Positions 50,533 through 52,699 of a stretch of DNA of 64,000 nt are shown piece after piece (position 1 is the stretch's first letter; each line of letters begins with the position of its first letter). The DNA comes from Sphingobium indicum BiD32 (GTDB lineage: Bacteria; Pseudomonadota; Alphaproteobacteria; Sphingomonadales; Sphingomonadaceae), in NCBI RefSeq assembly GCF_000382885.1, contig NZ_CAVK010000024.1, forward strand, positions 1-64,000. Direction: 5' to 3'. The notes beneath the pieces are model-generated. The model made no database searches. It saw only the letters and a program-made list of their open reading frames with translations, and was not told the origin of the DNA. The translations under genes and the position numbers were made by a program.

Positions 50533-51525
50533 ATGACATTCCGCATGCCCGCTGAATGGGCACCGCACGACTGGACCTGGATCGGCTTTCCGACCAACCC
50601 CGCCGAATGGCCCGGCGCGTTCGAGGATGCGCGGGCGCAGATCGCTGCCTTCGCCAGCGCGCTCCACGCCGGGGGCAAGGGCGAAGATGTCCGGCTCGTT
50701 GTCGCCAACGCAGCGGACGCGGACGCTGCGCGCGCCCTGGTCGCGCCGGGCGTCACGATCGTCGAGCAGAGACTGGGCGACGTCTGGCTGCGCGATACCG
50801 CGCCAATCGCGGTGCTGAACAGGGGAGCGCGGGCACTGGTCGATTTCGGCTTCAACGGCTGGGGCGGCAAATATCAGATGCCGGGGGACGAGGATATCGG
50901 CGCGCGGCTGGCCGCGACCACCGGCCTGCCGACATCGACCCAGCATTGGATATTCGAGGGCGGCGCGGTCGACACCGATGGCACCGGCCTGTTCGTGACC
51001 ACCGAGCAATGCCTGCTCAACCCCAATCGCAATCCCGGCCTCGACCGGGGGAAGATCGAAACGTTGCTGGCCGGCAGCCTTGGCCTGTCCGACATGCTGT
51101 GGCTGGGCGACGGGTTGCTGAACGATCATACCGACGGCCATGTCGACAATCTGGCGCGCTTCGTGGGCGAAGGCCTGCTGGCGCTGCCGATCGCCACGAC
51201 CGATGACGATCCTAACGCGGCGATCTACGCCGATGCACGCGCGCGGGCCAGAGCGCATGGCTTGGACGTCGTGGACATCCCCTCGCCCGGCCTGGTGATC
51301 GTGGATGGCGAGCCGATCCCGGCCAGCTACATGAATTTCTACATCGGCAACGCAACCGTCATCGTGCCTGTCTATGGCCAGCCCAATGATCAGGCGGCGC
51401 TCGATACGCTCGCGCCTTTCTTTCCGGGCCGGGATATTGTCGGCCTGGGCAGCGACGCCATATTGTCGGGCGGCGGCAGCTTCCACTGTTGCAGCCAGCA
51501 GATGCCCACAAAGGGTGACCAATGA
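50533..51525 (+). CDS. aguA: Agmatine deiminase
   Basis: A 330-residue guanidino-group-modifying enzyme converting agmatine to N-carbamoylputrescine and ammonia. Signatures are MPAEWAPHDWTWIGFP at the start, GDVWLRDTAPI, LNDHTDGHVDNLARF and the catalytic Cys in GGSFHCCSQQMP (C319 or C320). ATG 50533 has AAGGA 7 bases upstream; a longer frame reaching 50200 reads across the divergent gene and is not real. Its stop overlaps the start of a small TonB-C-like gene (ATGA), beyond which lies aguB. Confidence 0.93.
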   Translation: MTFRMPAEWAPHDWTWIGFPTNPAEWPGAFEDARAQIAAFASALHAGGKGEDVRLVVANAADADAARALVAPGVTIVEQRLGDVWLRDTAPIAVLNRGARALVDFGFNGWGGKYQMPGDEDIGARLAATTGLPTSTQHWIFEGGAVDTDGTGLFVTTEQCLLNPNRNPGLDRGKIETLLAGSLGLSDMLWLGDGLLNDHTDGHVDNLARFVGEGLLALPIATTDDDPNAAIYADARARARAHGLDVVDIPSPGLVIVDGEPIPASYMNFYIGNATVIVPVYGQPNDQAALDTLAPFFPGRDIVGLGSDAILSGGGSFHCCSQQMPTKGDQ

Positions 51526-51854
51526 GACTGAAAGCCGGCCTTCCACTTATAGCGATTCTGAGTTCCCTCTCCTCCGGCGCCATTTCCCAAGGTGGTGGAG
51601 CCACCACCGAAGGTTATTCTAAGCTAGCTTTACGAGAGGAACGCGAAGCAAGTTTGCATTTCAAAGTCGCTATAGGCGCTGAAGGCATAGCGAAGGATTG
51701 CACCGTCACACAGAGTTCTGGTTCGCAAGAATTAGACGATGCGGCCTGCAAGATAATTATGAAACGTGCTCATTTTAAACCAGCCCGGAACGCCAAAGGT
51801 GAGCCGGTTGAAGATGTCTACGAAAGCCGCTTTGTCTGGAGAGTTCCGCAATGA
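51522..51854 (+). CDS. Small exported TonB C-terminal-domain-like protein, atypical codon use
   Basis: A 110-residue protein. After a hydrophobic N-terminus (signal-like, to about residue 22) it has a TonB C-terminal pattern: LHFKVAIGAEGIAKDCTVTQSSGS, ELDDAACKIIMKRAHFKPARN and SRFVWRVPQ. It lacks the TonB transmembrane anchor-plus-proline spacer, so it is a stand-alone domain. Codons ATA (four times), AGA, TTA and CTA are frequent here but rare in its neighbours. It overlaps aguA and aguB with ATGA at both ends; removing it would restore direct aguA-aguB coupling. This points to insertion of foreign DNA. A link to polyamines is not evident. Confidence 0.75.
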   Translation: MRLKAGLPLIAILSSLSSGAISQGGGATTEGYSKLALREEREASLHFKVAIGAEGIAKDCTVTQSSGSQELDDAACKIIMKRAHFKPARNAKGEPVEDVYESRFVWRVPQ

Positions 51855-52699
51855 CCAAAGTAACCGTCGCCGCGCTTCAGCTCAGCTTTTCCGACGACAT
51901 GGCCGAGAATATCGCGCGCGTCGCAACCCATGTGACCAAGGCCGCCGCGCGCGGGGCGAAGATCATCCTGCCGCCGGAGTTGTTCGAGGGTTCCTATTTC
52001 TGCCGGGTCGAAGATGAAGCCCTGTTCGCGCGCGCGCTGCCGGTGGACGAGCATCCCGCCGTGCAGGAAATGCGCAAGCTGGCCAAGGATCTGGGCGTCT
52101 ATATCCCGACCAGCTTCTTCGAGCGCGACGGGCAGCATCATTATAATTCGCTGGCGATGATCGACGATCAGGGCGAGATTATGGGCGTCTATCGCAAGAG
52201 CCATATTCCCGACGGGCCGGGCTATGAGGAGAAATATTATTTCCGCCCCGGCAATAGCGGCTTCAAGGTTTGGCCGACCAGATATGGCACGATCGGCGTC
52301 GGCATCTGCTGGGACCAATGGTATCCCGAATGTGCACGGGTGATGGCGCTGATGGGCGCGGAAATGCTGTTTTATCCGACCGCGATCGGCTCCGAACCCT
52401 ATGATGCGGACCTCGACACCAGCCGGATGTGGCGGCGGGCGATGATCGGCCATGCCGTGTCCAACTGTATGCCGGTCATCGCTGCCAACCGCATCGGTGA
52501 GGAGGATGGCCAGTCCTTCTACGGCCATAGTTTCATCAGCGACCAGTGGGGCGATTTCGCCGCCGAAGCCGATGCCAAAGATCTGGGCGCGCTGGTAGCA
52601 ACGCTGGACCTGACGGCAGCGCGAACCCATCGCGCGGGCATGGGTTTCTTCCGCGATCGGCGGCCCGACCTTTATGGGCGGATCGCACAGGATATCTGA
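51851..52699 (+). CDS. aguB: N-carbamoylputrescine amidase
   Basis: A 282-residue nitrilase-superfamily enzyme hydrolysing N-carbamoylputrescine to putrescine, CO2 and ammonia. The catalytic triad is E43 (PPELFEG), K117 (YRKSHIPDG) and C154 (GICWDQWYPE). YEEKYYFRPGN and the QSFYGHSFISDQWG segment are typical of AguB. Its ATG overlaps the preceding stop (ATGA), with GGAGAG 7 bases upstream. With aguA it completes the agmatine-to-putrescine route. It is convergent with the acyltransferase gene 2 bases away. Confidence 0.93.
   Translation: MTKVTVAALQLSFSDDMAENIARVATHVTKAAARGAKIILPPELFEGSYFCRVEDEALFARALPVDEHPAVQEMRKLAKDLGVYIPTSFFERDGQHHYNSLAMIDDQGEIMGVYRKSHIPDGPGYEEKYYFRPGNSGFKVWPTRYGTIGVGICWDQWYPECARVMALMGAEMLFYPTAIGSEPYDADLDTSRMWRRAMIGHAVSNCMPVIAANRIGEEDGQSFYGHSFISDQWGDFAAEADAKDLGALVATLDLTAARTHRAGMGFFRDRRPDLYGRIAQDI

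Follow-up and report, generated by a model that had tools for sequence, protein, structure and literature searches.

The window analysed here is a stretch of 64,000 nucleotides from Sphingobium indicum BiD32 (contig NZ_CAVK010000024.1), and all positions are counted from its first letter. Three genes lie in a row on its forward strand. The upstream partner is an aguA-like gene (50533..51525, +), recognized by its open reading frame and a Pfam match, that encodes a PAD_porph family deiminase of 330 aa. The downstream partner is aguB (51851..52699, +), which encodes an N-carbamoylputrescine amidase of 282 aa. Nested between them is a gene of 110 aa (51522..51854, +), which carries a TonB C-terminal domain after a hydrophobic N-terminus and has no proline-rich spacer; it was characterized from its open reading frame, Pfam, codon statistics, and AlphaFold and Foldseek. 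Of the two names given to the partners in an earlier, sequence-only reading of this DNA, aguB is secure, as its product passes the N-carbamoylputrescine amidase equivalog model (443.1 bits with a cut-off of 410.25). The name aguA is a looser fit: the Pfam match to PAD_porph is strong at 338.8 bits, but on the agmatine deiminase model TIGR03380, whose cut-off is 381.8, the protein reaches only 228.4 bits, in a match that is split into two stretches.

The three genes are joined by ATGA overlaps. The ATG of the nested gene at 51522 is overlapped by the aguA stop TGA at 51523-51525, and the aguB ATG at 51851 is overlapped by the stop of the nested gene at 51852-51854. Each overlap sits in a CAATGA hexamer (51520..51525 and 51849..51854, both +) formed by the terminal Gln codon and TGA stop of aguA on the left and of the nested gene on the right. 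The coordinates, the frame, both hexamers, and the overlaps, re-read from the sequence, agree with the first description. Within the 3' end of the nested gene, GGAGAG (51838..51843, +) resembles a Shine-Dalgarno sequence and is a suggestive candidate for that of aguB. Its duplex with the anti-Shine-Dalgarno sequence has an energy of -6.4 kcal/mol, whereas 300 ATGs picked at random from the window have a median of -3.2, and 5% of them stand at -7.0 and 27% at -5 or below, so that signals of this kind are weakly above random. By Pfam and TIGR profiles, the direct neighbors of the nested gene are the aguA-like gene and aguB; exbB and exbD do not adjoin it.

The composition of the nested gene is atypical, as had been proposed. 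Per 110 codons, ATA is found 4 times where 0.65 is expected, AGA twice (0.16), TTA twice (0.13), and CTA once (0.22). The gene has a GC content of 0.506, a GC3 of 0.455, and a codon adaptation index (CAI) of 0.42; the same values are 0.665, 0.818, and 0.734 for aguA and 0.612, 0.762, and 0.754 for aguB. Against 255 stretches of 110 codons taken from 43 long ORFs of the window, a CAI this low was found in 1/255 and a GC3 this low in 0/255, a comparison that is conservative because some of the 43 ORFs are surely spurious. The CAATGA at both ends, read earlier as a sign of insertion, does not carry that meaning. The hexamer occurs 16 times on the forward and 13 times on the reverse strand of the window (29 in total), ATGA, the overlap itself, supplies four of its six letters, and the rest follows from a terminal Gln codon before the stop, so the repeat is no evidence of an insertion mechanism.

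A probably unanchored TonB domain

The nested protein matches the TonB C-terminal family PF03544 with 48.6 bits (cut-off 24.6) and TIGR01352 with 31 bits (cut-off 27.1). Only 31 residues precede the Pfam match, with no proline-rich stretch among them, which bears out the earlier description of a TonB C-terminal domain that lacks the usual spacer. The genome has four other TonB_C matches, all in longer open frames (226-324 aa). In the AlphaFold model (mean pLDDT 79.7), residues 41-110 have block means of 88-98, the first 30 residues have values of 44-53, and the fold runs strand-strand-helix-strand. The best Foldseek matches are TonB domains, the top two from structures determined with TbpA and FoxA (E 5.8e-4 and 9.5e-4; 18-20% identity). 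The model thus supports an intact TonB domain. All 23 aligned sequences have Cys60 and Cys76, which are predicted to form a disulfide. The proline of the YP motif has been lost in this genome and is kept in the copy of Sphingobium sp. AS12 described below.

The N-terminus begins with MRLK followed by GLPLIAILSSL, that is, two positive residues and a hydrophobic core with a mean hydropathy of 2.04 over 11 residues, features from which export of the protein is predicted. A TonB energy transducer has the same C-terminal fold and sequence in common with the nested protein; however, the transducer is anchored for work with ExbB/ExbD, has a proline-rich spacer, and has exbB and exbD as gene neighbors, none of which is evident here. 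A full-length sphingomonad TonB of 219 aa encoded beside MotA_ExbB and ExbD genes (genome G023, locus L009) is 50% identical over residues 23-110 and has the same cysteine pair. Compared with this protein, the nested gene corresponds to the last ~85 residues alone, placed behind a different N-terminus. Because it has no spacer, the product probably does not bridge the periplasm as an ordinary energy transducer would.

The product is most likely a periplasmic, unanchored TonB domain and a putative mild competitor of TonB. This proposal draws on work with related fragments. In vitro, unanchored TonB fragments are described as binding FhuA and the TonB box of BtuB (PMC11658791), and Howard et al. 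2001, as cited in PMC9769762, is reported to show that the TonB periplasmic domain synthesized in vivo inhibits transport by FecA and FhuA. The E. coli case is likewise a TonB periplasmic domain made in vivo, but to judge from its title it concerns a laboratory construct, whereas the nested gene is natural and its role is predicted from sequence. The link seen between the nested gene and polyamines is one of shared position.

Near relatives and the direction of change

Among the matches listed, the closest copy of the nested gene is found in Sphingobium sp. AS12 (most likely G062 in the genome set, where the genome analysed here is G000), with 77% identity and the same place and ends. Of the remaining junction copies in the genus, that one alone has CAATGA on both sides. 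Two further relatives, G085 and G056, have aguA genes 96% and 94% identical to that of G000 and a bare junction that reads GGGATGACCATGACC. In G000 the left edge of the nested gene reads GGGTGACCAATGA and the right edge CCGCAATGACC. The TGACC-ATGA of the bare junction can still be made out at the left edge, and the more distant G070 has a similar 2-bp spacing, which together favor the bare form as the older state.

A DNA tree built from the M28 peptidase gene, aguA, and aguB of 12 genomes has the order (G091,(G000,(G062,(G056,G085)))), with moderate support at the two forks that matter (81/85 and 93/95). A clade of G000 with G062 is not rejected (AU p 0.066), and G056 and G085 may therefore either never have had the nested gene or have lost it, in which case their bare form would be secondary. 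The simplest reading is a single gain after the G091 split, with or without a loss in G056 and G085. Between G000 and G062, dS is 0.32 for the nested gene and 0.33 for aguB by NG86 (0.26 vs 0.41 by YN00), which suggests that the nested gene and its flank are of much the same age in these genomes. With near relatives that do not have the gene and with its atypical codons, the proposed insertion between aguA and aguB stands in its essentials: the nested gene is most likely a derived addition to an aguA-aguB pair, inserted as an overlapping middle cistron, where we infer the direction of the gain from the comparison with these relatives. The further idea that it is cargo with defined ends fares differently and is taken up below.

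A variable slot between aguA and aguB

The junction comparison covered 93/94 genomes of the genus, G000 included; G063 was left out since the genes were not found there. The gap is shorter than 60 bp in 43/93 genomes, and within these G005, G006, G032, and G064 have a direct aguA/aguB ATGA overlap. Another 14/93 have a gap of 85-227 bp in which queries for three kinds of genes recognized nothing. An intact gene for a membrane protein of ~117 aa occupies the junction in 12/93 genomes, a DUF2501 gene in 15/93, and a TonB_C gene in 7/93 (G000, G062, G007, G066, G049, G076, and G050). In 2/93 (G022, locus L101, and G011, locus L110), the gap holds a remnant of the membrane gene, its C-terminal part, as expected of a decaying occupant. 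Two kinds of occupants are found together in 0/93. The junction is a variable slot, with at least three unrelated small genes in one genus, and this variable middle position of aguA-X-aguB is a more interesting finding than the nested gene itself. The 86/93 genomes with no TonB_C gene at this position also lead to the rejection of a three-gene order ancestral in all relatives, which, together with normal codon use, the sequence-only reading had named as fatal to its proposal.

The occupants can be described in some detail. All 8 single-domain junction TonB_C proteins score above the Pfam cut-off, and in G050 (L128) two different TonB_C genes stand in tandem from aguA to aguB. DUF2501 (PF10696) is found in 20/94 genomes at 21 places, and 16 of the 21 places, in 15 genomes, are the aguA-aguB junction (loci L043, L046, L058, L061, L062, L064, L065, L082, L091, L108, L117, L120, L152, L153, and L154). 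A Pfam family for the ~117-aa membrane gene was sought and not assigned: the protein of G012 had no match at E 0.001, and the best match of that of G235, DUF2062 (0.087), was below the cut-off. A hydrophobic start was seen in all nine TonB_C genes and in one representative each of the membrane, DUF2501, methyltransferase-like, and ThuA kinds, the last two of which come from other genera. Of the unrelated membrane genes, 8/12 could also start at an ATG placed in this -4 overlap with aguA, which makes the overlap a property not peculiar to the nested TonB_C gene. GC content of the TonB_C gap is below that of its flanks in 7/7 genomes (mean -0.060); membrane-gene gaps (-0.002, n=12) and DUF2501 gaps (+0.015, n=15) are on average not GC-poorer.

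By eye, the 106-132 bp gaps of G001, G024, G087, G039, G045, G047, and G091 (loci L041, L042, L044, L045, L048, L052, and L103) appear to share similar, possibly hairpin-forming, REP-like repeats; a repeat search at one locus with such a gap found no repeat in it.

The slot extends to other genera of the Sphingomonadaceae, where 20 junctions, mostly with long gaps, were fetched from the 150 matches listed per search. The membrane gene, recognized from ORF sequences, is found in seven of them (G235, G202, G262, G215, G136, G103, and G094), and in G094 it is joined by a further methyltransferase-like gene, which G248 has alone. The junction of G148 holds a ThuA protein, that of G214 (L171) a 219-aa protein with two TonB_C domains, that of G164 a gene on the opposite strand, and that of G259 a 2.5-kb stretch with other ORFs. 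In 8/20, the gap is short and has no ORF of 60 aa. The loci of other Sphingomonadaceae, in this genus and beyond, resemble the one analysed here in that the junction holds a small gene, with an ATGA overlap with aguA available in several; they differ in that X is a DUF2501, ~117-aa membrane, methyltransferase-like, or ThuA protein, whereas here it is a TonB_C protein. As a control, the tonB-exbB junction, covered to a flank of 1.5 kb, spans 31-113 bp in 76/82 loci (65 genomes, 38 of this genus); the 6 loci dropped had no exbB in reach and comprise the agu-junction copy of G076 and TonB genes elsewhere.

Outside the agu junction, G314 (L233) has a 342-aa frame with two clear and one weak TonB_C-like stretches in tandem, and G357 (L208) encodes a 129-aa TonB_C protein with a hydrophobic N-terminus at a locus with no aguA or aguB.

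Origin of the nested gene and its meaning

The best explanation, to which we give a probability of roughly one half, is a recent gain of an exported TonB-domain gene at a variable junction, with a product predicted to compete with full-length TonB. A recent ancestor shared by G000 and Sphingobium sp. AS12 would have acquired, at the start codon of aguB, one short gene that joins an export signal to a TonB C-terminal domain of the sphingomonad type. Across this family, small genes appear to be gained and lost repeatedly at the junction. Insertion may have occurred by illegitimate recombination at ATGA. The new middle cistron would be translationally coupled through the 4-base ATGA overlap at each of its ends, an arrangement in which the coupling of aguA to aguB can persist. 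The product would be exported, would fold as a TonB C-terminal domain held by the Cys60-Cys76 pair, and would most likely bind the TonB boxes of outer-membrane transporters with no transmission of energy.

After AS12, the nearest sequences among the matches listed are the C-terminal domains of full-length sphingomonad TonBs. The foreign look noted earlier holds for composition; a distant donor finds no support here, and the domain resembles the tails of sphingomonad TonBs. The searches made found no donor. An origin in a phage or plasmid was considered and set aside, with 0 matches to the nested protein in phages and three weak ones in plasmids (31-36% identity), annotated as energy transducer TonB or TonB family protein.

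A somewhat unlikely alternative is that a TonB_C gene was already present in the common ancestor, was lost or replaced in most lineages, was kept in G000 and AS12, and owes its odd codons to fast evolution. Its presence at the junction in seven genomes of the genus, twice over in G050, and the double-domain gene of G214 in another genus fit such an ancient gene. In a domain tree of 68 rows, from which matches under 60 bits were left out, the copies from the junction are spread over two or three places, with few columns and with long branches that meet. For the 8 single-domain sequences of the junction, monophyly is not rejected (AU p 0.36), so one old capture followed by many losses may also account for them. 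A tree of the M28 peptidase was made for 25/30 genomes (no match reached E 1e-60 in G049, G076, G060, or G018, and the only match in G003, a 33% paralogue, was set aside), and to place the TonB label of 5 rows on it takes 5 changes. The domain tree pairs G007 with G066 (100/94), but the M28 tree puts G066 in the clade of G000 (100/97). Along with these conflicts, an ancient gene has against it the 86 junctions of the genus with no TonB_C gene and the membrane gene that fills the slot in the seven other-genus genomes. From these trees and the low GC content of the TonB_C gaps, repeated capture of TonB_C genes at the junction is plausible, though not a firm claim.

An unlikely alternative is that the gene is a decaying or nearly neutral passenger, tolerated since it leaves the coupling of aguA and aguB undisturbed. 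Between G000 and G062, its dN/dS is 0.35 (NG86) or 0.48 (YN00), with 0.05 or 0.04 for aguB, and in neutral simulations 187/4000 runs retain the 85 identical residues that were observed, so that conserved residues are in marginal excess, and 24% keep the frame open; selective constraint would appear to be at best weakly present. The remnants of another occupant in G011 and G022 also suit a passenger. However, the frame is intact in both species at 46/333 differing bases, and the invariant residues of the domain are kept, both cysteines included.

The notion of a cargo gene with defined ends was followed by searches for a second site. A pattern-limited scan of GTDB contigs returned 1 relative, AS12; the matches listed in 94 genomes of the genus were G062 alone and then full-length TonBs; and among the matches listed in 397 genomes of the family, with at most 11 candidates scored per genome, there was no second site. 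The same small gene with the same ends was thus not seen in other operons among the matches listed, and a cassette with signature ends was rejected. If the gene were a true cassette, one that moves singly, enters at ATGA, and duplicates CAATGA, this would suit the atypical composition, the ATGA at both ends, and the patchy distribution across the genus, but such a cassette is highly improbable given these searches, a repeat explained by Gln-stop and overlap, and a second two-sided CAATGA in G062 only. Among the matches listed in the literature, no title concerned a nested TonB domain or the aguA-aguB junction; the titles included ones on the comparative genomics of Stenotrophomonas and on siderophores of Shewanella.

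The junction offers a concrete and well-sampled case of unrelated small genes found at one position in different species of a single genus. Bare, occupied, and decayed states lie side by side, and the gain and loss of operon genes could be dated there. On a broader and more speculative view, which we hold to be improbable as it stands, the junction would be an exchange slot of the Sphingomonadaceae for single envelope-protein genes, maintained because translational coupling outlasts the swaps, and unanchored TonB domains would have been captured repeatedly as natural competitors of TonB, tuning TonB-dependent uptake with polyamine metabolism. The TonB-dependent transporters of this bacterial group are the subject of a review (PMC7142613). 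If the unanchored TonB domain binds such transporters, it would be a natural counterpart of the laboratory inhibitor.
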